From Bacteroidota bacterium (GTDB taxonomy: Bacteria; Bacteroidota; Bacteroidia; Chitinophagales; Chitinophagaceae), in assembly GCA_013287475.1 (NCBI GenBank), contig JABDDT010000026.1, forward strand, positions 1 through 36,181: DNA of 36,181 nucleotides. Direction: 5' to 3'. Position numbers and translations under genes: made by a program. Positions within the stretch are counted from its first letter, which is position 1, and each line of letters starts with the position of its first letter. The notes below the pieces were generated by a model. The model worked only from the letters and a program-made list of their open reading frames with translations. It had not been told where the DNA came from and ran no database searches. Of this stretch, positions 11,977 to 27,707 are shown in pieces.

Positions 11977-13512
11977 ATGGTAGACATCGGATCGCGGAGC
12001 CTTTCCCTTATCAATTTTTCAGACATTGTTTTTAAAGAGGATCAAATTACCCTGAATCCTGCGGCACTTGAAAAAGTAGATGCCAGTTTTCAATTCCTCC
12101 GTCATTTTTCAACCGGAAAGCTCATCTACGGCATCAATACGGGTTTCGGTCCCATGGCCCAATATAAGATCAGTGACGAAAATCGCCTGCAGCTTCAATA
12201 TAACCTGATCCGCAGTCATAGTTCAGGGATGGGCAGTGCCCTCAGCCCTCTTCTGGGAAAAGCCGTGCTGGTTGCCCGTTTGAACAGTCTCATGCAGGCA
12301 CACTCAGGAATTCATATAAGTCTGGTGGAACTGCTTGCTGCTCTTATAAATAAAAATATCATTCCCTGTATTTATGAGCATGGTGGTGTGGGTGCCAGCG
12401 GCGACCTGGTACAGCTGGCCCATGTGGCCCTGAATCTGATCGGAGAAGGAAAGGTATGGTATGAATCTGCATGGCAGGATACGTCGGTTGTATATAAAAA
12501 AGCCGGTTTGAAACCACTTGAAATTCATATCCGCGAAGGAATTTCAGTTATCAATGGAACATCTGCCATGACAGGCATTGGCCTTGTTAATATTATATAT
12601 GCCAAAAAACTTCTCGCCTGGTCCGTTATGTTCTCATCCATGACCAATGAAATCGTGGAGGCTTACGACGATCATTATTCCAAGGAACTCAATATTGTTA
12701 AACACCATACGGGACAGAACTATGTAGCGGCTATGATGCGCGGTATGCTGAAGGACAGTAAGATGATCCACAGTCGTGTGGAACATCTTTATAATCCTGC
12801 CAATATCGAATATGATGTCTTTGAAGATAAAGTGCAGGAATATTATTCACTTCGATGCGTGACACAGGTTTTGGGTCCGGTTTACGATACCATAGAGCAT
12901 GCAGAAAGAATTCTCGTGGAAGAACTGAATTCAGTAAACGATAATCCGGTAATCGATCATAAAAACAAGAACATTTTTCATGGTGGCAATTTTCACGGGG
13001 ACTATGTGGCACTTGAGATGGATAAACTTAAAATCGCCGTCACCAAATTGTCCATGCTTGCTGAAAGACAGCTGAATTATCTCTTAAATGATAAGTTGAA
13101 TCAAATACTGCCGCCCTTTGTAAATCTGGGAGTTCTGGGATTTAATTTTGGTATGCAGGGAATGCAGTTCACGGCAGTTTCCACGGTTGCAGAAAATCAG
13201 ACACTTTCCTACCCTATGTATATTCACAGCATTCCAAATAATAACGACAATCAGGATATTGTAAGTATGGGATGCAATGCTGCGCTGATGACAAAAAAGA
13301 TAATTGACAATAGTTTTGAAGTGCTGACCATTCAGGCGATAACCATTCTGCAGGCGATTGATTATCTCAAATGCCAGGAAAAACTTTCACCAGCTACCCA
13401 CAGAGTTTATTCCTCGATCAGGCAGATATTCCCGAAATTCGTTGAGGACAGTCCCCGGTATGAAGAACAGGAAAAAGTAAAAATCTGGCTCCAGAAAAAT
13501 GATCCGTTATGA
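11977..13512 (+). CDS. Aromatic amino acid ammonia lyase (tyrosine ammonia-lyase type)
   Basis: The 511-residue enzyme belongs to the MIO-dependent HAL/PAL/TAL family. The self-cyclising A140-S141-G142 triad lies in GGVGASGDLVQLAH, and the catalytic tyrosine loop YGINTGFGP starts at Y51. NNNDNQDIVSMG is the conserved C-terminal active-site region. The selectivity segment reads LIRSHSSG (S80-H81). From memory the whole protein closely resembles the Flavobacterium johnsoniae tyrosine ammonia-lyase, so deamination of tyrosine to p-coumarate is the likely reaction. This supplies the aryl starter of flexirubin/aryl polyene pigments. The stop codon overlaps the start of the ketoreductase gene (ATGA). 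Histidine as substrate is the main alternative but is disfavoured by context. Confidence 0.92.
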   Translation: MVDIGSRSLSLINFSDIVFKEDQITLNPAALEKVDASFQFLRHFSTGKLIYGINTGFGPMAQYKISDENRLQLQYNLIRSHSSGMGSALSPLLGKAVLVARLNSLMQAHSGIHISLVELLAALINKNIIPCIYEHGGVGASGDLVQLAHVALNLIGEGKVWYESAWQDTSVVYKKAGLKPLEIHIREGISVINGTSAMTGIGLVNIIYAKKLLAWSVMFSSMTNEIVEAYDDHYSKELNIVKHHTGQNYVAAMMRGMLKDSKMIHSRVEHLYNPANIEYDVFEDKVQEYYSLRCVTQVLGPVYDTIEHAERILVEELNSVNDNPVIDHKNKNIFHGGNFHGDYVALEMDKLKIAVTKLSMLAERQLNYLLNDKLNQILPPFVNLGVLGFNFGMQGMQFTAVSTVAENQTLSYPMYIHSIPNNNDNQDIVSMGCNAALMTKKIIDNSFEVLTIQAITILQAIDYLKCQEKLSPATHRVYSSIRQIFPKFVEDSPRYEEQEKVKIWLQKNDPL

Positions 13513-14237
13513 AGTGTGCACTCGTTACCGGAGGATCCAGGGGGATAGGCCGGGCAATATGTATAAAACTCGGATCCCTGGGTTATCATGTTCTCATTAA
13601 TTTCCGGTCGAATTCTGCTGAAGCCGATCAGACTCTTTCTCTTATTCATAATAATAAAGGAACGGGAGAATTGCTGCCCTTCGATGTAAGCAATAAAAAG
13701 GATATTTCTGAAACCCTGGGTCTATGGACAGAAGCTCATAAGGAAGATCATATTGAAGTATTAGTTAATAATGCCGGCATTAAAGACGATGTGCTGATTA
13801 TGTGGATGAAGGATGAACAATGGGAAAATGTGATCAGGACTAACCTGGACAGTTTTTTTTATGTTACCCGCCTTGTTATTAACGATATGCTCATGAAAAG
13901 ATATGGCCGCATCGTTAATATAGTTTCACTTTCAGGGCTCAAAGGTCTTCCCGGACAAACCAATTATTCCGCAGCAAAAGGTGGTGTTATTGCAGCGACC
14001 AAGGCACTTGCTCAGGAGGTGGGTCGGCGTGGAATTACGGTAAATGCTGTGGCGCCAGGGTTTATCAAAACTGATATGACTGAAAATATTTCAGAAAAAG
14101 AAATGAAATCTATTATTCCTGTAAACAGGTTCGGTACGGTAGATGAAGTAGCACATCTGGTTGCTTTCCTGGCCTCTCCCGAAAGCGGATATATTACCGG
14201 GGAGGTGATTTCGATTAATGGAGGGCTTTACACTTAG
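13509..14237 (+). CDS. fabG: 3-oxoacyl-ACP reductase (FabG-like ketoreductase)
   Basis: This 242-residue short-chain dehydrogenase would reduce 3-ketoacyl-ACP to 3-hydroxyacyl-ACP with NADPH during polyene extension. It shows the cofactor motif TGGSRGIG (7-14), NNAG (87-90), N112, a serine region NIVSLSG (S140/S142) and the catalytic Y153-x3-K157 in NYSAAKGG. The C-terminus SINGGLYT is typical of FabG. Length is normal. It overlaps the ammonia lyase gene by four bases and is the only ketoreductase in the cluster, so it probably serves every extension cycle (ApeQ-like role). A repeat-rich hairpin follows it. Confidence 0.95.
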   Translation: MKCALVTGGSRGIGRAICIKLGSLGYHVLINFRSNSAEADQTLSLIHNNKGTGELLPFDVSNKKDISETLGLWTEAHKEDHIEVLVNNAGIKDDVLIMWMKDEQWENVIRTNLDSFFYVTRLVINDMLMKRYGRIVNIVSLSGLKGLPGQTNYSAAKGGVIAATKALAQEVGRRGITVNAVAPGFIKTDMTENISEKEMKSIIPVNRFGTVDEVAHLVAFLASPESGYITGEVISINGGLYT

Positions 14238-14240
14238 CAC

Positions 14241-14390
14241 AAGTATAGGAGTATAAGAGTATAAGAGTATAAGAGTATAAGAGTATGGGAGTGGAAATTC
14301 ACACTCTTATACTCTTATACTCCTATACTCTTATACTCTCACACTCTCACACTCTCACACTCTCACACTCTCACACTCTCACACTCTCAG
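14241..14390. repeat. 8-bp tandem repeats forming a long cruciform
   Basis: The left half is six 8-base units (AAGTATAG, four GAGTATAA, GAGTATGG; 14241-14288). The right half is eleven units (three ACTCTTAT and one ACTCCTAT at 14303-14334, then six ACTCTCAC and one ACTCTCAG to 14390). The left array is nearly the reverse complement of the first part of the right array around an 8-base centre (14294-14301), giving a stem of about 45 bp. The element fills almost the whole gap between the ketoreductase and the first ketosynthase and probably influences read-through. Confidence 0.9.
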
Positions 14391-14412
14391 ATATCTTTCC
14401 TAATTTGGCCCC

Positions 14413-15636
14413 ATGAACAGAGTGGTCATTACCGGCCTCGGTATTTACTCCTGCATCGGCAAGGATTTGGAAGAAGTGAAAAACAGCCTGTTTCAGGGAA
14501 GATCGGGTATTATCTACGATGCGGGTCGCAAAGAAATGGGGTTTCGTTCTGCCCTGACTGGTTTTGTTGAACGACCCAACCTGAAAGGGCTCCTCGACCG
14601 CAGGGCCCGGATCATGCTTCCCGAACAGGGCGAATTCGCCTATATGGCTACTCTGCAGGCTCTATCCCAGGCCGGAATCAATACTGAATATATCCACCAT
14701 AATGAAATTGGAATTTTATACGGGAACGACAGCTCGGCAAAGTCAACCATTGAGGCCGTGGACATCATGCGTCAGAAAAAAGATACGATGCTCGTCGGTT
14801 CGGGAGCTGTTTTTCAAACCATGAATTCAACGGTTACGATGAACCTGGCTACTATTTTTAAATTGCGCGGTGTTAACTTTACGATCAGTGCTGCCTGCGC
14901 CAGCGGATCCCACGCAATAGGACTAGGATATCATTTCATCAAAACGGGTCTGCAGGAATGCATTATCACCGGAGGGGCGCAGGAAATCAACGCCTTATCG
15001 ATGGGAAACTTTGACGCCCTGTCGGCTTTCTCATCAAATGAAAATCACCCACAAAAAGCTTCCAGGCCATTTGATAAAGACCGCGACGGACTGATACCCA
15101 GCGGTGGGGCTGCAACAGTCGTACTGGAAAGTCTTGAATCTGCCCAAAAAAGAGGCGCAAATATCCTGGCTGAAGTCGTTGGATATGGCTTTTCTTCAAA
15201 CGGAGAGCATATTTCAAATCCTACCGTAAATGGCCCTGTTCGTTCTTTGTATATGGCCTTAAAAGACGCGGACCTGGAACCTTCAGCCATAGAATATGTC
15301 AATGCCCATGCTACGTCGACGCAGGCTGGTGATTCAAGTGAAGCAAAAGCACTGGTAGAAGTTTTTGGTGAGAAAAAAGTTCCAGTGAGCTCAACAAAAT
15401 CTATGACGGGACATGAATGCTGGATGGCCGGCGCCAGTGAAATTGTTTATTCCATGATCATGATGCAGAATGGATTTCTAGCACCCAATATTAACTTTGA
15501 AAATCCTGATGAAGATTCATCCAAACTGGATATCGTTAAAACTTCCACAGAAAAAAATATAAATGTATTTTTGTCGAATTCATTCGGCTTCGGGGGAACG
15601 AATTCTTCCCTGATAGTGAGAAAATGGAAACCCTAA
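14413..15636 (+). CDS. Beta-ketoacyl-ACP synthase (FabF/FabB family), KS 1
   Basis: This 407-residue condensing enzyme joins an acyl thioester with malonyl-ACP. The catalytic triad is visible: C162 in SAACASGSH, H299 in NAHATST and H334 in KSMTGHECW, with K329. The C-terminal FGFGGTNSSL is conserved. Length is standard for FabF. It is the first gene after the repeat-rich gap and is followed 17 bases later by an ACP. Two further complete ketosynthases and a chain-length factor occur downstream, so it may act alone (ApeR-like), for example in initiation or in making the acyl partner. That assignment is inference. Confidence 0.93.
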   Translation: MNRVVITGLGIYSCIGKDLEEVKNSLFQGRSGIIYDAGRKEMGFRSALTGFVERPNLKGLLDRRARIMLPEQGEFAYMATLQALSQAGINTEYIHHNEIGILYGNDSSAKSTIEAVDIMRQKKDTMLVGSGAVFQTMNSTVTMNLATIFKLRGVNFTISAACASGSHAIGLGYHFIKTGLQECIITGGAQEINALSMGNFDALSAFSSNENHPQKASRPFDKDRDGLIPSGGAATVVLESLESAQKRGANILAEVVGYGFSSNGEHISNPTVNGPVRSLYMALKDADLEPSAIEYVNAHATSTQAGDSSEAKALVEVFGEKKVPVSSTKSMTGHECWMAGASEIVYSMIMMQNGFLAPNINFENPDEDSSKLDIVKTSTEKNINVFLSNSFGFGGTNSSLIVRKWKP

Positions 15637-15653
15637 TCGAAATTTAACCCAAC

Positions 15654-15944
15654 ATGCAACAATCTCTACCCGTTATTGAAAAAATAAACGGCTTTCTGTC
15701 TGATGAATTTGAAGCAGATATCGACCGGATGCAACCGGATGCGAATATCAGGCAGGTACTGGAACTGGATAGCCTTGATTATATTGACCTGGTCGTAGTG
15801 GTCGAAAACAATTTTTCTTTCAAAGTAAAACCAGAGGATTTTATACGGATCATAACATTTCAGGATTTCTATACGTATATTATCTCCCGCGTCCAATCTA
15901 AAGAACCAACCGATGCCGTCATGGCAGGGCAAGTCCCGAGGTAA
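15654..15944 (+). CDS. Acyl carrier protein, ACP 1
   Basis: This 96-residue carrier protein has the phosphopantetheine attachment serine S40 in LELDSLDYIDLV. Helix 2 is rich in hydrophobic and acidic residues, as usual. It lacks the exact DSL-D/E-V pattern of housekeeping AcpP, which supports a specialised role. Its 3' end overlaps the acyltransferase gene by 32 bases, suggesting coupled expression and perhaps direct use as acyl donor. No phosphopantetheinyl transferase is encoded in the window. Confidence 0.92.
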   Translation: MQQSLPVIEKINGFLSDEFEADIDRMQPDANIRQVLELDSLDYIDLVVVVENNFSFKVKPEDFIRIITFQDFYTYIISRVQSKEPTDAVMAGQVPR

Positions 15945-16809
15945 CAGAACTGGTTTCCGGATTTTCGTCTGGGTACTCAAACATGCCGGTCTGCCTTCGG
16001 CTTATTTGTTATTACGTTTTGTTGCCTTCTATTTTTTTATTTTTTCAGGTAAAGCCTTCCTGTGTCAATATGATTTCTTCAGACGGCGTCTTGGATTTTC
16101 TGCATGGCGCAGCTTCTGGAGTATTTACAAAAACTATTACTGGTTCGGACAAACGATCATCGATAAAATCGTACTCACTTCCGGAATAAAAAACCCCTTT
16201 CTTTTTGAATTTGAAGGTGAAGAAAATCTTCGGGAGATGGTAAATCAAAATAAAGGGGGGCTTCTTTTAAGCGCTCATACGGGTAACTGGGAAATCGCCG
16301 GTTATCTGCTGAAACGTCTTGGTACAGATATGCATATCGTAATGTACGATGGGGAACAGCAACAGATCAAAGACTACCTGGAAAGCATAACCGAAAAACA
16401 TTCTGCGCGGATTATACTAATCAAAGAAGACCTCTCTCATATTTACGCGATCCAGGAAGCTTTGGCCAATAATGGATTTGTCTGTATGCATGCTGATCGT
16501 TTCCTGGAAGGAAATAAAACACTCACAGGTATTTTATTAAATAAAGCGGCAAGATTTCCTGCAGGGCCATTCCTTCTGGCCCATAGTTTTCATTCACCCG
16601 TTTCTTTCGTCTTTGCCATGAAAGACCATGCTTTTGATTATCATTTTTATGCAAGTGCCGCGAAAATATATTCAGGCCCTAGGGATTCTTCGATACGGGA
16701 AATGCTGCGTGATTATTGCGCTGCGATGGAAGAGACTATCAGAAAATATCCTTTGCAGTGGTACAACTATTATGACTTTTGGATTGAAAGTCCAAAGCCT
16801 AAATTCTAA
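15913..16809 (+). CDS. LpxL/HtrB-like lysophospholipid acyltransferase
   Basis: This 298-residue membrane-associated acyltransferase resembles late lipid A acyltransferases. The catalytic HxxxxE motif is H122-T-G-N-W-E127 in LLSAHTGNWEIAG. An N-terminal hydrophobic stretch lies around 30-50. The first residues MPSWQGKSRGN are, from memory, a common beginning of this subfamily in Bacteroidota, supporting the start at 15913 despite a 32-base overlap with the ACP gene. In the cluster it probably transfers the finished aryl-polyene chain, or the fatty partner, to an alcohol or lipid. Homologues occur in many aryl polyene clusters. Confidence 0.9.
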   Translation: MPSWQGKSRGNRTGFRIFVWVLKHAGLPSAYLLLRFVAFYFFIFSGKAFLCQYDFFRRRLGFSAWRSFWSIYKNYYWFGQTIIDKIVLTSGIKNPFLFEFEGEENLREMVNQNKGGLLLSAHTGNWEIAGYLLKRLGTDMHIVMYDGEQQQIKDYLESITEKHSARIILIKEDLSHIYAIQEALANNGFVCMHADRFLEGNKTLTGILLNKAARFPAGPFLLAHSFHSPVSFVFAMKDHAFDYHFYASAAKIYSGPRDSSIREMLRDYCAAMEETIRKYPLQWYNYYDFWIESPKPKF

Positions 16810-16817
16810 AACTAATG

Positions 16818-16952: not shown

Positions 16953-16979
16953 ATAAAGGCTTTAGGCTTATCTTTAAAT

Positions 16980-17405
16980 ATGCCTTTCGATCCCCAAAAC
17001 GCATCTGTACTCATCCCCCATAAACCTCCGTTTGTTCTGGTTGACTGGCTCCTGTATGCAGATGAAAAAAAATCCCTCTGTAGTTTTAAAATCCCGGAAG
17101 GGAATATATTTGTTGAGCAGGGTTTTTATACCACGCCGGGAATGGTGGAATCGATGGCACAGACGGCGGCCGCAGGTACGGGATTTTTATTTAAGAAAGG
17201 GAATAAACCTGTTCCGGTCGGATATATCGGCTCTGTACAGAAACTGGAGGTGATAGAATGGCCACCGGTAAACGCAGAAATTACGATGGAGATCAGCCTG
17301 CTTACCAATATATTGCAGGTATCCCTCGTTTCCTGTAAGGTAAAATATGAGGGGAGAATCATGGCTTCCTGCGAAATGAAAATTTTTGTAAACAGTTTAT
17401 CATGA
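16980..17405 (+). CDS. Hotdog-fold 3-hydroxyacyl-ACP dehydratase, ApeP-like subunit
   Basis: The 141-residue protein has the hotdog dehydratase frame: LIPHKPPFVLVD near the N-terminus and the central-helix sequence GMVESMAQTAA with E57, equivalent to the catalytic acid of FabZ. The GHFPG segment that supplies the catalytic histidine in FabZ is missing; the region reads VEQGFYTTPGMVE. This is the pattern I associate with COG4706/ApeP proteins of aryl polyene clusters. It therefore probably needs a partner that supplies the histidine, and the protein at 27342-27707 fits. It would dehydrate 3-hydroxyacyl-ACP to trans-2-enoyl-ACP. Its stop overlaps the next start (ATGA). Confidence 0.85.
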   Translation: MPFDPQNASVLIPHKPPFVLVDWLLYADEKKSLCSFKIPEGNIFVEQGFYTTPGMVESMAQTAAAGTGFLFKKGNKPVPVGYIGSVQKLEVIEWPPVNAEITMEISLLTNILQVSLVSCKVKYEGRIMASCEMKIFVNSLS

Positions 17406-18058
17406 AGAATAAAATTTTAACACACGGTTTCTTCTTTACCCTACTGGTGGCCCCTGCTTTCATATATGGACAATCATTATCGGCGTCGGCTTTTTTCAAT
17501 AATGAATCCCTCCCTGCTACTTACCTGGGAATTGATTTTACGCTCGCAAAACTGATCAACGACGATGCTTCCAGTGCAAGAACCATCCAGTCAACACAAT
17601 TCAACGGCATCAATGACCTGATGATCAGTGAAAGTAAAAAATACGAAATCAAAGAAGCATATCATCGTAGTAACTGGACCCCGGATATTAAAGAAGTAGA
17701 GAACCGTAATGATAAAGCGAATCCTGATTCTCTCAAATCAAACAATGAAGGCGATCTCACCAGGTTGAAACCGGAGGATATCGATAAACTCGTTAGAAAT
17801 TTTAATTATGGATCTCTTAAGGGTTATGGTGTCCTGCTCATCATGGAAGGGATGAGTAAAACTGATAAACGTTGTACGATTTGGTTCACGCTGATAGATA
17901 TGGATTCAAAAAAAGTGCTGACGACTGCAAGGGTCGAAGGTAAATTGGGCAATGGATTTGGATTCCGGAATTACTGGGCTTCCGCTATTAAAAGCGCTAT
18001 CAGCCATGTAAAAAGCAAAGACTACGATCAGTGGAAAACCGGCGCAGGAAGCAAGTAG
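17402..18058 (+). CDS. Secreted protein of unknown function in the pigment cluster
   Basis: This 218-residue product has a signal peptide (about 1-23, ending AFIYGQ) and no lipobox, so a periplasmic or exported location is expected. No family was recognised. The mature part is mixed alpha/beta with strands such as GYGVLLIMEGMSKTDKRCTI and IWFTLIDMDSKKVLTTARVE. The latter resembles beta-rich envelope proteins that report a difference or modification state, but no catalytic residues stand out. Its start overlaps the dehydratase stop by four bases, so it is translated as part of the pigment operon. A role in pigment placement or envelope adaptation is inference. Confidence 0.75.
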   Translation: MKNKILTHGFFFTLLVAPAFIYGQSLSASAFFNNESLPATYLGIDFTLAKLINDDASSARTIQSTQFNGINDLMISESKKYEIKEAYHRSNWTPDIKEVENRNDKANPDSLKSNNEGDLTRLKPEDIDKLVRNFNYGSLKGYGVLLIMEGMSKTDKRCTIWFTLIDMDSKKVLTTARVEGKLGNGFGFRNYWASAIKSAISHVKSKDYDQWKTGAGSK

Positions 18059-18225: not shown

Positions 18226-18669
18226 ATGTCAAAAAAAAATATATTGAAGAGTGAAACGGAAGTTCTTGTGCGATTCAATGAAGCAGATCCTCTGGGGATT
18301 GTATGGCATGGACATTATATACGTTATTTTGAAGACGGCCGCGAGGATTTTGGAAAACGCCATGGGATAAGTTATCTCGATTTTTTTAATATTGGCTTTG
18401 TAATCCCCGTCGTAAATGTGGATTGTTCTTTCAAAAAATCCCTTCGTTATGGTGATACTGTGATTGTAGAAACGACATTTATTCCATGTGATGCTGCCAA
18501 AATCAAATTCAGTTATCGTTTATTTAATAAGAAAACACAGGATCTGGTAGCCACCGGCAACTCCATACAGGTTTTTCTCGACAGGGAACATTCCGTTCTG
18601 CAACTCCTCAATCCCCCTTTTTTTGAGGAATGGAAAAGAAAATACCTTCATCCCAAACAACATCCATGA
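18226..18669 (+). CDS. Acyl-CoA/ACP thioesterase, 4-hydroxybenzoyl-CoA thioesterase family (ApeK-like)
   Basis: The 147-residue hotdog thioesterase has the active-site loop NEADPLGIVWHGHYIRYFEDG, in which D21 is the catalytic aspartate of the YbgC/4HBT family. The following FFNIGFVIPVVNVDCSFKKS and SLRYGD are also typical. It would hydrolyse acyl-thioesters, either to release products or to edit stalled ACPs. A 167-base gap without clear signals precedes it. Its stop codon overlaps the start of the next ketosynthase gene (ATGA at 18666-18669), so it belongs to the same translational chain. Confidence 0.9.
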   Translation: MSKKNILKSETEVLVRFNEADPLGIVWHGHYIRYFEDGREDFGKRHGISYLDFFNIGFVIPVVNVDCSFKKSLRYGDTVIVETTFIPCDAAKIKFSYRLFNKKTQDLVATGNSIQVFLDREHSVLQLLNPPFFEEWKRKYLHPKQHP

Positions 18670-19784
18670 GAAATGTATATGTGACAGCTGACAATATATT
18701 CTCGCCCCTTGGAAAAAATACTTTTACCAATATGGATTCCCTGAAGAAAGGCATAACCGGTATACAGTTACATAAAACGAATATTTCTCCCGAACCATTT
18801 TATGCTTCCCTTTTTTCGCCGGAAGAAAAAAGAGATGAAGAATTAATAACTTACTTCGAACGCATCATAATAAATTCAGCGCTGGATGCCATGCAGCAAA
18901 TTGATTTTGATCCGGGAAACAAAAAAAACGGATTTATTCTTTCTACAACGAAGGGCAATATCAGTCTTATAGAAAATTTATCGGATGAAAATATTCCTGA
19001 GAATCGTGTTTCTTTAAATACCAGCGCCGGTATTATTGCAAATTATCTTGGTTTCGTTTCGGAGCCGCTTGTAATTTCGCACGCGTGTATTTCCGGTTTA
19101 CTGGCTATCATCACAGGCATGCGCCTGATCCAGTCCGGTGTGCATGAAAACATTGTCATATCGGGAGCTGATCTTATCAGCACATTTATTTTTTCGGGGT
19201 TCCGGTCATTTCAGGCTATCAGCCCTGGTCCATGCAAACCCTTTGATGCCGCCAGAGATGGAATCAGTCTCGGGGAAGCTGCTGCCACAATAATCCTATC
19301 AGCAAATAAAACGCCGGATGCTATTTTGCTGGGTGGAGGTTCTGTTTCGAATGATGCAAATCATATCTCTGGTCCTTCCCGTACCGGGGAAGAACTATTT
19401 CTCGCCATCGGCCGCGCTTTAAATCAGGCAGGAACCCATGCAGATGAAATAGATTTTATTTCGGCTCACGGAACAGCAACCCGGTTTAACGATGAGATGG
19501 AAGCCAAAGCTTTTCACCTGGCATCGTTGTCAGAAGTTCCAACAAATAGTCTGAAAGGTTACTATGGTCATACCCTTGGTGCGGCCGGCATATTGGAATC
19601 CATTGTGACAATAAATTCAATGAGAGATAATATTATTCTTCCCTCATTTGGGTTTAAAACACCAGGAACTGAAATGCCCGTCAATATCGTTAAGGAATTA
19701 AAACAGGAGAAATTGAATAAATGTTTAAAAACAGCGTCTGGGTTTGGGGGGTGTAATGCAGCGCTGGTAATTCTCAATTATTAA
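18666..19784 (+). CDS. Beta-ketoacyl-ACP synthase-like protein, KS 2
   Basis: The 372-residue product starts at ATG 18666 (ATGA overlap with the thioesterase stop). The open frame reaches upstream to 18630, but MRNVYVTADNIFSPLG is the natural family start. The catalytic set is present: C141 in ISHACISG, H268 in SAHGTAT, H302 in YYGHTLGAAG and K297. Compared with KS 1 and KS 3 the N-terminal half is divergent and the nucleophile context is unusual (HAC rather than TAC), indicating a specialised substrate. The 3' end, including the stop codon, lies inside an AT-rich palindrome. Confidence 0.9.
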   Translation: MRNVYVTADNIFSPLGKNTFTNMDSLKKGITGIQLHKTNISPEPFYASLFSPEEKRDEELITYFERIIINSALDAMQQIDFDPGNKKNGFILSTTKGNISLIENLSDENIPENRVSLNTSAGIIANYLGFVSEPLVISHACISGLLAIITGMRLIQSGVHENIVISGADLISTFIFSGFRSFQAISPGPCKPFDAARDGISLGEAAATIILSANKTPDAILLGGGSVSNDANHISGPSRTGEELFLAIGRALNQAGTHADEIDFISAHGTATRFNDEMEAKAFHLASLSEVPTNSLKGYYGHTLGAAGILESIVTINSMRDNIILPSFGFKTPGTEMPVNIVKELKQEKLNKCLKTASGFGGCNAALVILNY

Positions 19785-19820
19785 TTATTAATTATTAATT
19801 ATTAATTAATAATTGAGAAT
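19770..19820. repeat. AT-rich perfect inverted repeat covering the end of the KS 2 gene
   Basis: ATTCTCAATTATTAATTA (19770-19787) and TAATTAATAATTGAGAAT (19803-19820) are exact reverse complements with a 15-base AT-only loop. The stop codon TAA at 19782-19784 lies in the left arm. Strength is limited by the AT content, and no T-run follows, so it may be a weak terminator, an RNA-stability element or an expanded repeat. Confidence 0.7.
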
Positions 19821-19871
19821 AAATATCTGGACAAACATTAATCATTAATAATTAATATTTGATAATTAAAA

Positions 19872-20948
19872 ATGAGGTTTTTTAAAAAAGACAATAAAAC
19901 TGCATTCGAAGCAAAGGGGCTGGCACAGTGGATTGCATTCGGACCTGTTGTATTCCAGGTTGCGCGCGTGTTGCGCAACACCGGTGTGCTCCGGATCCTG
20001 CTGGAAAAAGGCAGTTCAGGTCTTACAATGGTGGAGATTCAGGAACAGCTGCAATTACCCTTTTATGGATTGCGCGTACTGCTGGAATCGGGCCTTGGCA
20101 TTGGACTGGTGGTTTTGAATGATGAGAAATATAACATCACCAAAACGGGAACATATATTCACAACGATCCCCTCACCAATGTGAATATGAATTTCGTACA
20201 TGATATATGTTACAAAGGATTATTCGCCCTCGACAAAAGTATAGAAACAGGAAAACCCGAAGGCTTAAAAGAATTTGGAAACTGGGATACGATTTATGAA
20301 GGACTTTCTTCCCTTCCGCCACAGGTACAAAAAAGCTGGTTTGCCTTCGACCACTTCTTTTCAGATATTGCTTTCCCTCCAGCTTTATCAAAAGTATATA
20401 ATGACAGCATAAAAAAAATTCTGGATATTGGAGGCAATACAGGGAAATGGGCAATCGCGAGCGCAGGCTATGTAAAGGATATCGAAATAACTATTATGGA
20501 TCTTCCCGGACAGCTTGAAGTTGCCAGGGAAAAAGTTAAACAGGCCGGATTAAGCGATCGCATTAATTTTTATCCCGCCAACCTGCTCGATGAAAAAACA
20601 GTTTTCCCAAAAGGTTTCGATGCCATTTGGATGAGCCAGTTCCTGGATTGTTTTTCTGAGACTGAAATCATTTCAATTTTAAAACGTTGCTACGATTCAA
20701 TAACAGATGATCAATATGTATTAATCCTTGAAGCGTTTTGGGATACACAAAGATTTGAAGCGGCTGCATTTTGTTTACAGCAGACTTCAATTTATTTTAC
20801 AGCCCTGGCCAATGGCAATAGCCAGATGTACCATTCGAAAGTTTTTATCAGATGTATTGAGGACGCGGGTTTTATGGTGGAGGAAAGAATTGATGATATC
20901 GGTCTTAGTCATACCCTGCTGAAATGTAAAAAAAGAAAATCTATTTAA
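19872..20948 (+). CDS. SAM-dependent methyltransferase, O-methyltransferase family 2 fold
   Basis: The 358-residue protein has an N-terminal dimerisation/winged-helix region (~16-95) and a Rossmann domain with SAM motif ILDIGGNTGK (183-192) followed by IMDLPGQLEVA. In plant-type O-methyltransferases the catalytic His lies in a LHDWxD-like sequence. Here the aligned stretch is FLDCFSETE, with D259 where the His would be. It may therefore methylate carbon rather than oxygen, which fits the ring C-methyl group of many aryl polyenes and flexirubins. It is followed 15 bases later by the halogenase-like gene; both are likely ring-tailoring enzymes. Confidence 0.85.
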   Translation: MRFFKKDNKTAFEAKGLAQWIAFGPVVFQVARVLRNTGVLRILLEKGSSGLTMVEIQEQLQLPFYGLRVLLESGLGIGLVVLNDEKYNITKTGTYIHNDPLTNVNMNFVHDICYKGLFALDKSIETGKPEGLKEFGNWDTIYEGLSSLPPQVQKSWFAFDHFFSDIAFPPALSKVYNDSIKKILDIGGNTGKWAIASAGYVKDIEITIMDLPGQLEVAREKVKQAGLSDRINFYPANLLDEKTVFPKGFDAIWMSQFLDCFSETEIISILKRCYDSITDDQYVLILEAFWDTQRFEAAAFCLQQTSIYFTALANGNSQMYHSKVFIRCIEDAGFMVEERIDDIGLSHTLLKCKKRKSI

Positions 20949-20963
20949 AGATAAATTCATATT

Positions 20964-22214
20964 ATGTCTATTCAAACCACAGATGTCCTGGTCATTGGTG
21001 CCGGTCCTGCAGGCACGGTCGCTGCTTCTATTGTTAATAAGTCAGGTTATAAAGTAAGGATTGTGGAAAAAATGAAATTCCCCCGATTTGTGATTGGAGA
21101 AAGTCTTCTGCCCCGTTGTATGGAAGCACTCGAAGAAGCAGGTTTCCTGGACGCGGTGAAAGCTAAAAAGTTCCAGGAGAAGGGTGGCGCTAAGTTTGTA
21201 AAGAACGGTAAGATCTGTGATTATCGTTTTTCGGAACAATTCACCAAAGGATGGGAATGGACCTGGCAGGTTCCACGCGCCGAATTTGATAAAATACTCG
21301 CTGATACGGTTGAGAAAATGGGCGTTCTCATTGATTATGAAACCACAGTAACCGCCATAGAATTCAAGGGCTCCGATTCAATTACGACAGTGATCGATAA
21401 AAACGGAACCGAATCGCAGATCAAAGCAAGATTCATCATCGATGGAAGTGGTTACGGACGGGTAATTCCGAAACTTTTCAAAATGGATAAACCCTCCAAT
21501 CTACCTTCCCGAAAGGCTTTGTTCACCCACACAGTCGATCTGCGCAGGGAGATGTCGGATGAACCAAACCGGATAACGATCGTTGTTCATAAACCCGGAG
21601 TATGGATCTGGATCATACCTTTTTCTACCGGAATAACTTCTTTGGGTTTTGTTGGCGATCCATCTTTTTTTGCAACCTATCCGGGCGATACGGAAAAGCA
21701 ATTAAGATCCATGATCGCAGATGAGCCTTATCTTAAAGAAAGATTTAAAGATATTGAATTTTTATTCGAACCCCGGGTTCTTGAATCATGGTCTTCTACG
21801 ACGGATCGTTTTTTCGGGGAGGGTTTTGTTCTAACAGGAAATGTTACCGAATTTCTGGACCCTGTATTTTCTTCCGGAGTTACACTGGCAACAGTTTCAA
21901 GTCAGATCGCCGGAAAACTTGTTGTAGAAAAATTAAAAGGACGTGAAATAGACTGGGAAAATGAATATATGAAAATCATGATGCAGGGAGTGGATACTTT
22001 TCGTTCCTATGTTATGGCCTGGTATGAAGGCACGCTTGACACCATATTCTTTGCGGATGATCAGGATCCGCTGATCAATAGTCAGATCTGTTCCGTGCTG
22101 GCAGGTTATGTTTGGGACATCAGTAATCCTTATGTGAAAAATCATAAAACCGGATTACACCGACTTGCTTCCGTGATCACTTACCGTGATAGTCTGAAGT
22201 CGAAATTGATTTAA
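20964..22214 (+). CDS. FAD-dependent halogenase-like oxidoreductase
   Basis: The 416-residue flavoprotein has the FAD-binding GAGPAG (12-17) and the sequence MKFPRFVIGESLLP, followed by FQEKGGAKF (K73). WTWQVPRAEFDKIL is also present, as is the halogenase signature WIWIIP (214-219, W-x-W-x-I-P). These together separate it from plain monooxygenases and geranylgeranyl reductase relatives. It would use FADH2, oxygen and chloride or bromide to halogenate an aromatic ring, matching the chlorinated aryl end of many flexirubins. It lies right after the methyltransferase gene. No flavin reductase is encoded nearby, so reduced flavin must come from elsewhere. Confidence 0.85.
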   Translation: MSIQTTDVLVIGAGPAGTVAASIVNKSGYKVRIVEKMKFPRFVIGESLLPRCMEALEEAGFLDAVKAKKFQEKGGAKFVKNGKICDYRFSEQFTKGWEWTWQVPRAEFDKILADTVEKMGVLIDYETTVTAIEFKGSDSITTVIDKNGTESQIKARFIIDGSGYGRVIPKLFKMDKPSNLPSRKALFTHTVDLRREMSDEPNRITIVVHKPGVWIWIIPFSTGITSLGFVGDPSFFATYPGDTEKQLRSMIADEPYLKERFKDIEFLFEPRVLESWSSTTDRFFGEGFVLTGNVTEFLDPVFSSGVTLATVSSQIAGKLVVEKLKGREIDWENEYMKIMMQGVDTFRSYVMAWYEGTLDTIFFADDQDPLINSQICSVLAGYVWDISNPYVKNHKTGLHRLASVITYRDSLKSKLI

Positions 22215-22228
22215 ATCTTAAGAATACA

Positions 22229-22852
22229 TTGCAACCTGTACCAAATATTTCCGCTTACTGCCTGATCTCTCCAAATAAAATTTTCCTGGATGGACAGATT
22301 ATTTTTGAGCATCCAGGATCTGCAGGAATTTTTCTGGATAAAACATATGATCATTTGGACTTTCCTTATCCGAAATTTTATAAAATGGATAATCTCTGTA
22401 AACTCGGCTTCCTGGCTGTCGAGATCCTGCTAAAAGGGAGGTCTCATGAAAAAAAATACAGTGATTCAGAAACCGGACTGGTACTCAGCAATTCGCATGC
22501 GAGCCTCGACGTAGATTTAAAATATTCAAAAACCATCCATTCCGGCGCTAGTCCTGCCTTATTTGTTTATACCTTACCGAATATTGTAATTGGAGAAATA
22601 TCCATACGTCACCATTTCAAAGGTGAAAATGCATTTTTTGTGTTTAAACACTTCGATGGTAATTTTATGGCTGAATATGTGTCGGGCTTAATTGAAAACA
22701 AACTCATAAAAAGCTGTATCTGTGGATGGGTGGATATTTTGAAAGAAGATTACCGCGCCATACTTTTTTTAGTAGAAACAGGTGGCGGAGAAAATAAACT
22801 ACCTTTTAATGCGGATAATTTGAATAAACTGAATGAGTCTGAACATGGATAA
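22229..22852 (+). CDS. Degenerate ketosynthase-like protein lacking catalytic residues
   Basis: The 207-residue product begins at TTG 22229, 14 bases after the halogenase stop; no ATG fits upstream. It resembles only the N-terminal half of a beta-ketoacyl synthase: GLVLSNSHASLDVDLKY, then SPALFVYTLPNIVIGEISIR, equivalent to the KS region before the active site. The sequence after that carries no Cys nucleophile, and the C-terminal half with the two His residues is absent. From memory, proteins like it occur in other Bacteroidota aryl polyene clusters. A structural or scaffolding role with the ACP or the other ketosynthases is inference. Confidence 0.75.
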   Translation: MQPVPNISAYCLISPNKIFLDGQIIFEHPGSAGIFLDKTYDHLDFPYPKFYKMDNLCKLGFLAVEILLKGRSHEKKYSDSETGLVLSNSHASLDVDLKYSKTIHSGASPALFVYTLPNIVIGEISIRHHFKGENAFFVFKHFDGNFMAEYVSGLIENKLIKSCICGWVDILKEDYRAILFLVETGGGENKLPFNADNLNKLNESEHG

Positions 22853-23117
22853 ACTAATGTATAAACTGAAGGAACAGATTATTGAGAGACTGCATTTGAA
22901 AGATCTGAAACCAGAAAATATCGGAGATGACCAGCCTCTGTTTGTTGAAGGAATCGGGCTGGACTCTATCGACGCGCTGGAACTGATCGTTTTATTGCAG
23001 CAGGAATACAATATTAAATTGTCCAATGCTGAAGACGGACCCCGCGTTTTTCATTCTGTAAGAACCATCGCAGATTATATTACCGCAAACAGCGGCGCTT
23101 TAAAGGTTACCACATGA
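22845..23117 (+). CDS. Acyl carrier protein, ACP 2
   Basis: This 90-residue carrier protein has the attachment serine in GIGLDSIDALELIVLLQ (S41 from the start at ATG 22845). An alternative in-frame ATG at 22833 would add MSLN; the later one is preferred because it gives the usual ACP N-terminus. Both overlap the end of the preceding gene. Its stop overlaps the KS 3 start (ATGA at 23114-23117), so ACP 2, KS 3 and the chain-length factor form one module and ACP 2 is the best candidate for the polyene chain carrier. Confidence 0.92.
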   Translation: MDKLMYKLKEQIIERLHLKDLKPENIGDDQPLFVEGIGLDSIDALELIVLLQQEYNIKLSNAEDGPRVFHSVRTIADYITANSGALKVTT

Positions 23118-24313
23118 GTAGCCATACTTTTGTTGCAGGCATGGGCATTGTTTCCGCAATAGGCAATGGCCTTCTTGCTAATCTTCAATCATTGAGCAAC
23201 GAAAAAGCGGGAATTGGAAAAATGAAATTTCTGCAATCCATTCATAGTGGAGAACTGCCTGTCGGCGAAGTAAAATTTAGTAATGGAGAACTTGCAGCAA
23301 TCTCCGGACTTTCATCTCAACTTCCCCGTACGGCTCTGTTAAGCAGTATTGCAGCATATGAAGCGCTCCTGGATGCCGGATGGGATAAAAGTTTTTCTCA
23401 GCGAACAGGTTTTATTTCAGCCAACACTGTCGGAGGAATGGATAAAACTGAAAATTTCTTTAAACTTTTTTCAAAAAATTCTGCTGCAGGAAAACTCGCT
23501 GATGTAGTAAATCATGAATGCGGTGCAGTAACCGAACTGGTAGCCGGTCAATTGGGTATCCGGCATTTTGTTAGTACCGTAAGTACGGCCTGTTCCTCTT
23601 CCGCAAATGCAATATTCACCGGTGCACGCATGATCAGGGCCGGCATGATTGACTATGCACTTGTAGGCGGAGCAGATGCACTAACACGTTTTACACTGAA
23701 TGGTTTCAATACGCTCATGATACTTGACAAGGAATTATGCAAACCATTTGATGAAAACCGCCATGGATTGAATCTCGGAGAAGGAGCAGCTTACCTGTTG
23801 CTGGTGTCGGAAAATGGGTTGAACCAACTGGGGAAAAAACCTTATGCCCTGGTCAGTGGATATGCCAATGCCAACGATGCTTTTCATCAGACGGCCTCTT
23901 CTCCGGAAGGAACAGGTTCATACCTTGCAATGAAGAATGCTTTGGATAACGCCGGAATCCAGCCTGGTGAAATAGATTATATCAATCTGCATGGAACAGG
24001 AACCCAAAATAATGACATCGCAGAAGGAACGGCTATCCAGTTATTGTTTGATCAGTCCTTTCCTAAAATGAGCTCTACCAAGGCCTATACGGGTCATACA
24101 CTTGGCGCAAGTGGAGCCGTGGAAGCCGTTTATTCAATACTTGCCATTCAGCAGGGGATCATTTTTCCTAACCTGCGACTGCAAACACCCATGAAAGAAT
24201 TTCCTTTTAAACCGGTTTCAGGTTTTTTAAGAAACCAGAAAATCAAATCTGTGATGTCGAATTCATTTGGTTTCGGAGGAAATTGTACATCACTTATTTT
24301 CTCTGCAGCTTAA
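23114..24313 (+). CDS. Beta-ketoacyl-ACP synthase, KS 3 (partner of the chain-length factor)
   Basis: This 399-residue condensing enzyme is complete: C160 in STACSSSANAI, H293 in NLHGTGTQNND, K323 and H328 in AYTGHTLGASGA, and the C-terminal FGFGGNCTSL. It is directly followed, after 8 bases, by a ketosynthase-like chain-length factor, the same arrangement as ApeO-ApeC in aryl polyene clusters and as KS-alpha/KS-beta in type II polyketide systems. The two probably form a heterodimer that iteratively extends the aryl starter with malonyl-ACP and sets the number of double bonds. Confidence 0.95.
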   Translation: MSSHTFVAGMGIVSAIGNGLLANLQSLSNEKAGIGKMKFLQSIHSGELPVGEVKFSNGELAAISGLSSQLPRTALLSSIAAYEALLDAGWDKSFSQRTGFISANTVGGMDKTENFFKLFSKNSAAGKLADVVNHECGAVTELVAGQLGIRHFVSTVSTACSSSANAIFTGARMIRAGMIDYALVGGADALTRFTLNGFNTLMILDKELCKPFDENRHGLNLGEGAAYLLLVSENGLNQLGKKPYALVSGYANANDAFHQTASSPEGTGSYLAMKNALDNAGIQPGEIDYINLHGTGTQNNDIAEGTAIQLLFDQSFPKMSSTKAYTGHTLGASGAVEAVYSILAIQQGIIFPNLRLQTPMKEFPFKPVSGFLRNQKIKSVMSNSFGFGGNCTSLIFSAA

Positions 24314-24321
24314 AAGAACTT

Positions 24322-25350
24322 ATGAAAGTTTATATACGGTCCGCGGGAAATATTTCTCCACAGCACAGTCTGGATACGGATTCCTTTTTTCTGTCCCGTA
24401 CAACTACTTCAAATAATTATTTCAAATCAGTAGAGCCGGATTATGATTCATTCATAGATAGTAAAATGATCCGCCGAATGAGCCGGATTGTTAAAATGGG
24501 CGTAACAGCTGCGATAACCTGTCTCAAAGAAGCTCATGTCGAAATCCCTGCCGCCATAGTAACTGCAACAGCTTACGGCTGTCTGGAAGACAGTTCATCA
24601 TTCCTTCGGCGCATGATTGAATTTGACGAAAAATTATTGAGTCCCACCGCATTTATCCAGTCCACCCATAATACCGTCGGGGCCCAGATAGCTCTTATGC
24701 TCAAATGTCATAACTATAATAATACCATCGTGCATCGTGGGCTTTCGTTTGAAAATGCTCTGACTGAATCAATACTGCTTCTGAAGGAAGGAACCCGACC
24801 GGTTTTGGTCGGTGCAATGGATGAAATTACTGATGACAGTCAAGCTATTTTAAGCCGGTTCGGACTCTACAGAAAAACGGATAATCGGATGGGAAATATC
24901 GCAGGAGAAGGCGCAGCTTTCTTTCTGCTGGAAAAAGATCAGGGGAAAAAATCCCTTGCAATTTTAAAAGGGCTTCATATCCTGTATAAGCCTGAAAGCA
25001 ATAAAGCAATTCAACATTCCCTACTTGAATTCCTGAAAGAAAAAGAAACGACCCTGGATCAGATCGGACTCATCCTCACCTCTCATACTGGCAATAAAAA
25101 AATGGATGAGCAGGACAAAGAACTTATGAATTCAGTATTCAGGAATAAGGTAACTTTTCCGTTCAAATCACTTTGCGGAGATTACCCGACTGCATCAGGA
25201 TTCGCCTTATGGATGGGGTCTGTCATATTGAAAGAACAAATGGCGCCATTCTGGATGGAGCACGGACCCCAGTTCCCACTCAGTAATATACTAATACATC
25301 ATCATTCAGGGAATTCCCATCATAGTTTCATTTTAATTAGCGAATCTTGA
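24322..25350 (+). CDS. Ketosynthase chain-length factor (Ketoacyl-synt_2, ApeC-like)
   Basis: The product is 342 residues from ATG 24322, where MKVYIRSAGNISPQ is the natural start; the frame is open upstream to 24283 within the KS 3 gene. It has the fold pattern of a ketosynthase but no nucleophilic Cys: the equivalent region reads SPTAFIQSTHNTVGAQIAL and TIVHRGLSFENALTE. The two catalytic His of the C-terminal half are also not evident. This matches the Pfam Ketoacyl-synt_2 group annotated as chain-length factor. It should dimerise with KS 3. Its stop overlaps the deacetylase start (TTGA). Confidence 0.88.
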   Translation: MKVYIRSAGNISPQHSLDTDSFFLSRTTTSNNYFKSVEPDYDSFIDSKMIRRMSRIVKMGVTAAITCLKEAHVEIPAAIVTATAYGCLEDSSSFLRRMIEFDEKLLSPTAFIQSTHNTVGAQIALMLKCHNYNNTIVHRGLSFENALTESILLLKEGTRPVLVGAMDEITDDSQAILSRFGLYRKTDNRMGNIAGEGAAFFLLEKDQGKKSLAILKGLHILYKPESNKAIQHSLLEFLKEKETTLDQIGLILTSHTGNKKMDEQDKELMNSVFRNKVTFPFKSLCGDYPTASGFALWMGSVILKEQMAPFWMEHGPQFPLSNILIHHHSGNSHHSFILISES

Positions 25351-26117
25351 ACAACCGCAGCTTCAATATTTTTTATATCATACTGATCCTTCTCTGGATA
25401 TGGGCAGATCGTCATTTACAGATGGGCGCTGCTGTTTATGGATGGCTATTGCTGGTATATGTTTCTGTTTTATTTTGCGGCAGTTATTTTATCAGAATGG
25501 GATTTTTTATGAAGTCCATTTGTTCCGCCAGGACCAATGAAAAAGTTATTGCCCTGAGTTTTGATGATGGTCCGGCAGGAAAAAAAACAACCCGTATCCT
25601 GGATATACTGAAAGAAAATAATGTTGAAGCAGCTTTTTTTTGCATTGGGAAAAATATGCCGGATAATGAGAATATCCTTAAAAGAATTACAAACGAAGGA
25701 CATATTATCGGAAATCATAGTAATTCCCATAATAGTTTTTTCGATCTGTTTAGTTCGAAAAAAATGCTGAATGAATTGGAGCTCGCCAGTCAGACCTGCC
25801 AGGATATTACCGGATTCTATCCACGCTTTTTCCGCCCACCGTACGGCGTTACTAATCCCAATCTGAAAAAAGCTGTTCTGCAAGGTGGATTTATTTCAAT
25901 TGGCTGGTCTATCCGTTCTTATGATACAGTTATAGGAAATGAGGAACGTTTGCAAGCCCGTATTCTTGACAGACTGAAATCCGGTGCCATACTTCTTCTG
26001 CACGACAGCAGTGAATCAACCCTGAAAATTTTGCCAAGATTGTTAAAAGAAATCCGTAATAAAGGCTATAAAATGATACGACTGGATAAAATGATTAATT
26101 TGAATCCCTATGATTAA
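25347..26117 (+). CDS. Polysaccharide deacetylase family protein (NodB domain), membrane anchored
   Basis: The 256-residue product begins at TTG 25347, overlapping the preceding stop. Two hydrophobic segments (~7-20 and ~29-48) anchor it. The NodB domain shows D73-D74 in LSFDDGP, H124-x3-H128 in GNHSNSH, RPPYG and the late LLLHDS motif, so the metal-binding triad and catalytic base are intact. It would remove an acetyl (or similar) group from an N- or O-acetylated substrate at the outer face of the membrane. Such an enzyme is uncommon in a pigment pathway; deacylation of the polyene or of an envelope glycan acceptor are possible roles. Confidence 0.9.
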   Translation: MNNRSFNIFYIILILLWIWADRHLQMGAAVYGWLLLVYVSVLFCGSYFIRMGFFMKSICSARTNEKVIALSFDDGPAGKKTTRILDILKENNVEAAFFCIGKNMPDNENILKRITNEGHIIGNHSNSHNSFFDLFSSKKMLNELELASQTCQDITGFYPRFFRPPYGVTNPNLKKAVLQGGFISIGWSIRSYDTVIGNEERLQARILDRLKSGAILLLHDSSESTLKILPRLLKEIRNKGYKMIRLDKMINLNPYD

Positions 26118-26745
26118 AACGGTGAGCCTGGTATGTTTTATTTTATGTTTTATTAATAGCAATGGTCAATATCCCGGTTTTACATTATTGAATAATCCGG
26201 AAACTTTTAAAAAATCATTTGCTCTGGCCACAGCAACAACGGAATCCATTCAATCGGATTTCAAACAGGAGAAATCTCTGAGTATGCTTTCGGAAAATAT
26301 AAATTCGTCCGGTAAATTCTGGTATCGGAAAAAGGATAAAATACGGATGGAATATATACAGCCCTATTCCTATATTATGATCCTTAACGGGGGTAAAATA
26401 TTCATTAAAGAAGGTCAGAAAGAGAATAAAATATCGGCCAATTCAAATAAAATTTTTCGACAGGTAAACCGGATACTAATTGATTGTATTGGTGGCAGCA
26501 TGCTGGAGAATCCGGATTTTCAATCACGTATTTTAGAAAGTTCCGGGACTTTCCTTGTTGAACTCACACCAGTAACAAAGAACCTGAAGGATCTTTATAA
26601 AAATATAAATATCCTCATAGATAAAAAGGATTACACGGCTACATCTATCGAGATGTTTGAACTTTCCGGAGATAAAACCATCATCCGTTTTCAGAACAAA
26701 ATATTAAATGAACCAATCAATGACCCGGTTTTTAATATTCCATAG
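26110..26745 (+). CDS. LolA-like periplasmic carrier protein in the pigment cluster
   Basis: The 211-residue product has a signal peptide (about 1-19, ending NSNGQ) and a LolA-type pattern: TESIQSDFKQEKSLSMLSE, then SSGKFWYRKKDKIRMEYIQP, YIMILNGGKIFI and a long beta-rich tail. LolA carries hydrophobic cargo across the periplasm. In aryl polyene clusters LolA homologues are thought to move the pigment or its lipid to the outer membrane. Its start overlaps the deacetylase gene by 8 bases and its end overlaps the lipoprotein gene by 38 bases, so it is tied into the operon. Confidence 0.85.
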   Translation: MIKTVSLVCFILCFINSNGQYPGFTLLNNPETFKKSFALATATTESIQSDFKQEKSLSMLSENINSSGKFWYRKKDKIRMEYIQPYSYIMILNGGKIFIKEGQKENKISANSNKIFRQVNRILIDCIGGSMLENPDFQSRILESSGTFLVELTPVTKNLKDLYKNINILIDKKDYTATSIEMFELSGDKTIIRFQNKILNEPINDPVFNIP

Positions 26746-27355
26746 TCTGTTCTGCCTGAGTATCTCCTGCAATCAGTACCGTTATATGCAGAAGATTCCA
26801 TCAGATGAATCCTGCATTGAAAAATTAAAACCGGATTTCCATCATGTCGTGTATAAAACTTCGGTTGATGTCATTGGAAAACATATCAGCGGATTATTGG
26901 TTGTAAAACACATGCCTGACAACAGCACAAGAGTGGTTTTTACCAATGAGATGGGTCTCAGCTATTTCGATTTTGGCTTCCCGCCCGATAGTGGATTTAA
27001 AGTTTATTCGATTATTCCCCAGATGAATAAAGAAGGATTGGTCAGAACATTGCGGAAAGATTTCGAACTCCTGCAATTCAGGAATATGGATAATAGTAAG
27101 TCCTATGCGCTTAAAGCCAGCGGACTGATTTATCATGCTTATCCACAAGCTGAAGGCGCAAATTATTATATTACCGATAGTAATTGCCGGCAATTGGTTA
27201 AAATGCAGAGGGCTTCTGCGAAGAAGCCAGTTATGGAAGCTGTTATTTTTGGAGACTCCAGGAATATTTCTCCGGACAGTATTTCGATCCGGCACTTTAA
27301 TATTTCACATTTTTCTATTACATTAAAACAAATAACTTCTCCTGCTGCTCAATGA
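26708..27355 (+). CDS. Lipoprotein of unknown function, possible LolB/DUF3261-like partner
   Basis: The 215-residue product has a lipoprotein signal (hydrophobic stretch then LSISC, lipidated Cys at about 21). ATG 26720 is an alternative start that still leaves a full signal. The mature part is beta-rich with GKHISGLLVVKHM, TRVVFTNEMGLSYFDFGF and FELLQFRN, a pattern reminiscent of LolB and of the DUF3261 lipoproteins found in aryl polyene loci. Family assignment is tentative. The most economical model is an outer-membrane acceptor for the LolA-like carrier encoded just before. Its stop codon lies inside the start region of the final dehydratase. Confidence 0.75.
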   Translation: MNQSMTRFLIFHSLFCLSISCNQYRYMQKIPSDESCIEKLKPDFHHVVYKTSVDVIGKHISGLLVVKHMPDNSTRVVFTNEMGLSYFDFGFPPDSGFKVYSIIPQMNKEGLVRTLRKDFELLQFRNMDNSKSYALKASGLIYHAYPQAEGANYYITDSNCRQLVKMQRASAKKPVMEAVIFGDSRNISPDSISIRHFNISHFSITLKQITSPAAQ

Positions 27356-27707
27356 CCTCTATATTATCCAAAAGCTGACAGAATCAGGGAATCAAATTCA
27401 GGCTGTCGTTGAGCTTCAGCCGGATCATGCCATTTTTAAAGGGCATTTTCCCGGACAGCCCGTTTTACCCGGGGTATGCATGATGCAGATGATCACGGAA
27501 ATTACCGGTGAATTTTTAGAACAGACTTTCCGGATCACTGATGCGCCGATGATCAAATTCCTGCATATGATCGACCCCGGGAAGAATCCGCTGATCCACC
27601 TGGAAATTAAATTCGATTCAACAAACACTTCAAAAACAAATGTAAGCGGAAAGATATTTTTCGAAGCAGAGATATTTATGAAGTTTCTGATGGCTTTGTC
27701 AGTGTGA
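27342..27707 (+). CDS. Hotdog 3-hydroxyacyl-ACP dehydratase, ApeI-like subunit (CTG start)
   Basis: The frame is open from a stop at 27333 to 27707 and reads LLNDLYIIQKLTESGNQ, then IFKGHFPGQPVLPGVCMMQ. It thus has the GHFPG catalytic-histidine motif of FabZ-like dehydratases (H35 if CTG 27342 is residue 1). No ATG, GTG or TTG lies upstream of it; the first ATG is 27480, which would delete this motif. CTG 27342 or 27345 gives the expected N-terminus (M)LLNDLY, about 121 residues. FabZ's catalytic Glu is replaced by Gln (Q49). The protein complements the His-less dehydratase at 16980. The gene overlaps the lipoprotein gene by 14 bases, consistent with translational coupling. Confidence 0.85.
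   Translation: MLLNDLYIIQKLTESGNQIQAVVELQPDHAIFKGHFPGQPVLPGVCMMQMITEITGEFLEQTFRITDAPMIKFLHMIDPGKNPLIHLEIKFDSTNTSKTNVSGKIFFEAEIFMKFLMALSV

Follow-up and report, generated by a model that had tools for sequence, protein, structure and literature searches.

Does a run of pigment-type genes on one contig of a Bacteroidota bacterium (Chitinophagaceae) encode an unusual aryl-polyene product, or is it part of a known pathway for flexirubin, the yellow-orange outer-membrane pigment of Bacteroidota? The analysed window was the entire contig C26 (36,181 bases) of a draft genome (3.16 Mb, 137 contigs, estimated to be 74% complete). The first-pass annotation of this window had described nineteen co-oriented genes at 11977-27707 as an aryl-polyene/flexirubin-type cluster with an unusual inventory, whose product could be an aryl-polyene acid bearing chlorine and methyl groups and linked to a moiety that is not dialkylresorcinol. 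Our analysis indicated that the window very probably holds flxA-flxS of a flexirubin pathway that is complete and standard except that this lineage keeps it at two loci. The assignment to the aryl-polyene/flexirubin type was borne out, as four window proteins passed the curated flexirubin models (FlxA, FlxB, LolA2_flexi and LolB2_flexi).

The nineteen genes stood as described, all on the plus strand; eighteen of them (to 27355) were in the list of open reading frames (ORFs), and the nineteenth, flxS, was an open frame at 27336-27707 that lacks ATG, GTG and TTG at the 5' end and encodes a FabZ-like dehydratase. Many of the genes overlap, as had been noted (11 of 18 junctions), and the range was 4 to 40 bases, counting from the longest starts, rather than 4-38; the last overlap (flxR-flxS) was measured from the frame boundary and not from a start codon. 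Among the window ORFs we saw no starter ligase, phosphopantetheinyl transferase (PPTase), MMPL exporter, DarA or DarB, with ORFs outside 9124-29319 judged by translation only. This absence had been reported correctly, but when the rest of the genome was examined all five were found on another contig, C13, which was traced by a search with the MMPL protein FlxU and also held one of the two PPTase matches. C13 carried, on one strand, flxT, flxU, flxV, flxW, flxX, flxY, a short gene frame, DarA, DarB, a protein of 135 amino acids (u134) and DarH, followed by an ABC transporter pair, an acyl carrier protein (ACP), a ketosynthase (KS) and a chain-length factor (CLF). The products were a glycosyltransferase (FlxT), an MMPL exporter (FlxU), an oxidoreductase (FlxV), a C45 acyltransferase (FlxW), a holo-ACP synthase (FlxX) and a 4-coumarate ligase (FlxY). 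FlxY scored 669.9 bits against NF053551 (cut-off 520), DarB 618.6 bits against NF053539 (cut-off 550) and DarH 465.4 bits (cut-off 300). Taken together, a gene scan of C26 and C13 recovered all 25 flx genes, DarA, DarB, the u134 gene and DarH.

The proposal of an aryl-polyene acid, chlorinated and methylated, joined to a partner other than dialkylresorcinol had drawn on the five genes missing from the 36-kb contig, and a glycan partner could be read from the presence of FlxP, a deacetylase, and FlxT, a glycosyltransferase. It was rejected once DarA, DarB and DarH turned up, together with FlxY, FlxX and FlxU, on C13 of the same genome, and we now regard it as very improbable. The inventory appeared unusual because only one contig of a split pathway had been read. 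A type III polyketide synthase-like gene also lies on contig C20 (L001), between UbiA-like and methyltransferase-like genes (names from translations). As an alternative source of the resorcinol it was not needed, and none of the three ORFs listed there was a flx gene.

Comparison of gene order supported the flexirubin assignment and likewise spoke against a different partner, as Chitinophaga, with the same gene order, includes a characterised flexirubin producer (according to the available part of PMC3992019). From a search with FlxA, 80 named loci were kept of a larger number, eight of them titled Chitinophaga. The genes flxA-flxN were collinear in 13 of these 80 (two without a detected flxG), including seven Chitinophaga and two Flavihumibacter loci. 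Two extended Chitinophaga loci contained all of flxA-flxY, with flxA-flxS ordered as in the window; after flxN they encoded a CLF, a deacetylase, LolA2, LolB2, a dehydratase, a glycosyltransferase, an MMPL protein, an oxidoreductase, a C45 acyltransferase, a holo-ACP synthase and FlxY. Co-occurrence was examined in 58 related genomes using curated NCBIfam cut-offs. FlxA exceeded its cut-off in 25 of these, and all 25 also held FlxY (23 above cut-off; fragments at contig ends in G027 and G029) and DarB (23 above cut-off; 547.2 of 550 bits in G033 and a fragment in G019), a pattern that speaks against a pathway with another partner. Among the other 33 relatives, DarB passed in three (G001, G018, G022) and FlxY in three (G001, G018, G048); G001 and G018 carry FlxA fragments, and G022 and G048 fell below the FlxA cut-off.

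The location of the pathway on two contigs raised the question of whether the split is an artefact of binning or assembly that united blocks from different organisms, as could happen in a draft of 137 contigs and 74% completeness. The same separation, however, recurred in four relatives (G003, G005, G006 and G008), in which flxA and DarB lay on different contigs with flxT-flxY beside DarA/DarB, and each block of the present genome is flanked by other genes on its own contig. The G+C content of the two contigs was similar (0.404 and 0.398), as was identity to G005/G003 (72-88% for eight C13 genes and 69-91% for five tested window genes), and this agreement speaks against mis-binning. An artefactual origin of the split can be given hardly any credence. 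In five further genomes of the same genus (G015, G026, G028, G020 and G010), flxT-flxY lay directly in front of flxA, with flxX not detected in G028. The flx cluster is therefore permuted in this genus relative to Chitinophaga.

Several observations weigh against a complete flexirubin pathway at two loci. No read joins C26 to C13, which are two separate contigs of an incomplete draft. DarA passed no NCBIfam model, and its assignment was based on its position and on 40% identity to a darB-adjacent gene in Flavobacterium sp. SLB02. FlxJ, at 536 of 560 bits, fell just short of its curated cut-off. The letters A-Y represent a fit of the published C. pinensis description (available in part from PMC3992019) to the order in Chitinophaga records. 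The eighth Chitinophaga-titled record, a short contig of a metagenome-assembled genome titled C. pinensis (L100), showed nothing of the cluster beyond flxA and a divergent FlxK-like gene, and G022 (78% complete) had FlxU and DarB but no full-score match to FlxA or FlxY.

The inventory listed by the first-pass annotation agreed with our family searches, except that one protein it had called unknown, FlxL, appeared CLF-like. The run opens with the tyrosine ammonia-lyase (TAL) gene flxA (11977..13512; NF053541, 846.8 bits, cut-off 700; ASG of the ASG/MIO motif at residue 140) and the short-chain dehydrogenase/reductase-type ketoreductase gene flxB (13509..14237; NF053542, 394.5 bits, cut-off 340). 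The flxB-flxC gap contains short tandem repeats at 14242-14389, with 8-bp units AGTATAAG and TCACACTC. FlxC (14413..15636) was assigned as a FabB-like KS with a Cys-His-His triad by its motifs, its best NCBIfam match (below cut-off) and its best PDB relatives, which were KAS I/FabB. It is followed by the ACP gene flxD (15654..15944; PF00550, DSL motif), the LpxL-like acyltransferase gene flxE (15913..16809; PF03279, 40.8 bits, cut-off 22.3) and flxF (16980..17405), whose FabZ-like dehydratase product scored 33.5 bits against PRK00006 FabZ, below the cut-off of 113, and matched no Pfam family. FlxG (17402..18058) matched no family and has an apparent N-terminal signal, as read from the sequence; its AF2 model (predicted local distance difference test score, pLDDT, 87.9) bore a weak likeness to the CsgG/PelC/TolB-N envelope lipoproteins (Foldseek best E 3.3e-5, TM-scores <0.5). 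The next genes are flxH (18226..18669), for a hot-dog thioesterase (PF13279, 65.1 bits, cut-off 25.5), and flxI (18630..19784), for an ApeO-like KS with Cys-His-His motifs whose best PDB match was ApeO (6qsp_A, E 3.1e-38). A further short tandem repeat, with the 7-bp unit TAATTAT, runs from the last part of flxI into the gap before flxJ (19768-19814).

The methyltransferase gene flxJ (19872..20948) matched the FlxJ model NF053543 over its full length, and flxK (20964..22214), for a flavin-dependent-halogenase-like protein, was assigned by its PDB relatives and by PF04820 (Pfam Trp_halogenase, 85.3 bits, cut-off 21); against the NCBIfam CmlS model it reached 156.6 of 900 bits. After flxL (22229..22852) come flxM (22833..23117), a second ACP (NF006617, 71.8 bits, cut-off 70), and flxN (23114..24313), a KS with Cys-His-His motifs that matched PF00109/PF02801 and, in the PDB, FabF first with ApeO among the top six. 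FlxO (24283..25350) is a CLF (PF13723; best PDB match ApeC, 6qsp_B, E 2.5e-4), and a motif scan for the KS active site in it was empty. The run closes with the polysaccharide deacetylase gene flxP (25347..26117; PF01522, 105.7 bits, cut-off 23.1), flxQ for LolA2 (26110..26745; NF053544, 203 bits, cut-off 125), flxR for the LolB2 lipoprotein (26708..27355; NF053540, 118.2 bits, cut-off 60) and flxS (27342..27707), for a second FabZ-like dehydratase, below cut-off, with a probable CTG start. The codon aligned with this apparent CTG was TTG in G005, GTG in G008 and ATG in G015. An Rfam scan of the window gave 0 matches, and no tRNA was found there. Upstream of flxA, here and in close relatives, are genes for an ABC ATPase, a permease and a LolA-like protein (9124-11758). 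This trio was considered as a pigment exporter and set aside, as the LolA-like gene was also present in genomes with no FlxA above cut-off (G007, G014, G025, G031 and G034); it is probably a neighbour of the cluster rather than its exporter.

FlxL, at 207 amino acids, matched no protein family, and its assignment came from structure prediction and profile search. Its AF2 model (pLDDT 87.2) had KS and CLF chains as top Foldseek matches, including ApeC (6qsp_B), and the query-based TM-score against CLF chains was about 0.6. A profile built from 30 of its homologues matched the CLF 6kxd_B in the PDB at E 4e-4. Kinship with the KS FlxN was not supported, as the hhalign comparison of the two was not significant, though the structure and the PDB profile search pointed to CLFs. 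FlxL thus looks like a short CLF-like protein.

Compact clusters in other genomes gave further context for this protein. These were arranged roughly as flxY-A-B-F-I-L-N-O-S facing a block of DarA, DarB, u134, DarH, ABC, ACP, KS and CLF genes, and were found within the same genus (L045-L046 in G002, L053-L054 in G030, L055-L056 in G032, L057 in G021, L059-L060 in G013 and L065-L066 in G023) and in Mucilaginibacter (L072-L074, L078, L084 and L085). In the stretches read, flxD, E, G, H, J, K, P, Q and R were not detected; flxB, F, O, S or Y also went undetected in some clusters, and some stretches ended inside the dar block. The FlxC mark in these clusters denotes a 29-34% match to another KS and not an orthologue. 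Genome-wide, no FlxU-scale match was found in G002, G013, G021 or G030, and G023 and G032 had one. In two otherwise flx-like clusters, L089 of Mucilaginibacter flavus and L203 of G018, flxI, L, N and O were not detected, and further genes were missing as well (flxE, G, J and P in L089; flxH in L203). The gene sets were near-complementary, which would fit the two KS-CLF pairs being exchanged as one module. It comes close to an even call that FlxL is a truncated CLF pairing with FlxI, that FlxI-FlxL and FlxN-FlxO form two KS-CLF heterodimers assisted by the FabB-like KS, and that flxI-L-N-O is a module kept in compact clusters with flxA, B, F, S, Y and the dar genes and missing from the main cluster of some other strains.

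Flavin-dependent halogenases are marked by a GxGxxG motif, a WxWxIP motif and an active-site lysine. In FlxK, the GxGxxG glycines, K73, both tryptophans and the proline of WxWxIP, and FxDPxxSxG were conserved in all 59 aligned rows, and the isoleucine of WxWxIP in 58 of 59, with some rows coming from overlapping loci. Such conservation would suit a pathway in which FlxK chlorinates the ring of the main flexirubin, as would the halogenases 8zop, CmlS and PltA among its PDB relatives; flexirubins are said to vary in methylation and chlorination, with chlorinated ones known, in the available part of PMC3992019. The closest solved relative, however, was 3nix, named only "Flavoprotein/dehydrogenase". 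Each of the eight Chitinophaga-titled loci also has a FlxK-like gene (placed between flxJ and flxL in seven, divergent beside flxA in the eighth), yet the C. pinensis flexirubin is given as C43H54O4, without chlorine, in the portion of PMC3992019 available, the presence of flxK in C. pinensis DSM 2588 itself being extrapolated from the genus. Ring chlorination of the main product is therefore a tentative proposal, and we judge it somewhat the less probable outcome. Halogenase motifs in FlxK alongside a chlorine-free C. pinensis pigment indicated that the gene permits chlorination and does not prove it, flxK being a usual member of such clusters. It was present in 13 of 14 genomes behind named loci. 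The exception was the genome of the close relative behind L068, in which a contig end follows flxJ. In the genome behind L079 (Niabella hibiscisoli), a FlxK-like gene at G068:C1:1357005-1358230 consisted of two overlapping pieces, one with an inner TGA.

The product is likely a standard flexirubin, in which an aryl-polyene acid is esterified with a dialkylresorcinol, ring-methylated and possibly ring-chlorinated. Gene content, order and co-occurrence were observed, and every catalytic step in this organism was assigned by homology with the published scheme. Tyrosine would be deaminated by FlxA to 4-coumarate, which FlxY would activate, and both activities have been demonstrated with the C. pinensis enzymes (PMC3992019, available in part). 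FlxX would prime the ACPs FlxD and FlxM, which would hold the growing chain, and malonyl units may be added to this chain by FlxC, by FlxI with FlxL and by FlxN with FlxO, and reduction by FlxB and dehydration by FlxF/FlxS would yield the aryl polyene. FlxJ would methylate the phenol ring, and FlxK may chlorinate it. DarA and DarB would supply the dialkylresorcinol, the ester may be formed by the acyltransferase FlxW or by DarH, and FlxU with LolA2/LolB2 may move the pigment to the outer membrane.

Proteobacterial aryl-polyene (APE) clusters share with the window a KS-CLF pair and a FabB-like KS (ApeO-ApeC and ApeR), and their proteins were the best PDB matches of FlxI and FlxO. In APE synthesis, ApeO-ApeC alone makes the full-length polyene in vitro and ApeR raises throughput (PMC8358021, accessible part); by analogy with ApeR, FlxC may act as an accessory KS. 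Unlike these clusters, the flexirubin route starts from tyrosine via FlxA/FlxY, the window has two CLF-like proteins and the genome has dialkylresorcinol genes. In C. pinensis, flxA-flxY correspond to Cpin_1853-1877 and darB/darA to Cpin_6850/6851 (available part of PMC3992019). The present genome matches that cluster in having the same 25 genes by description, the flxA-flxS order of the Chitinophaga loci read and dar genes away from flxA, and differs in that flxT-flxY lie apart from flxS, beside the dar genes on another contig. The flexirubin cluster of F. johnsoniae UW101 is described in the same partial source as 37 kb long with dar genes inside. Flavobacterium sp. SLB02 (L150-L152) has the same core enzymes, and its order of DarA, DarB, u134, DarH, ABC and ABC permease genes recurs on C13 without the intervening Flavobacterium genes. 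In Flavobacterium, in contrast, the dar block and flxA occupy one region and the halogenase-like gene is divergent, its product 46% identical to FlxK.

Flexirubin clusters are widespread: a survey, as far as its available text goes, counted 268 of them in 252 strains and describes a Chitinophagia family to which BGC0000839 belongs (PMC9248904). The locus studied here is ordinary, belonging to a known kind of flexirubin cluster, and the difference, as far as tested, is its arrangement. These findings removed a false lead, in which a standard flexirubin pathway seemed incomplete and exotic when a single contig of a fragmented genome was read, and demonstrated that flx gene order has been rearranged within one genus. 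The compact clusters lack flxJ, flxK and the genes for LolA2 and LolB2, which makes the roles of those accessory genes testable.

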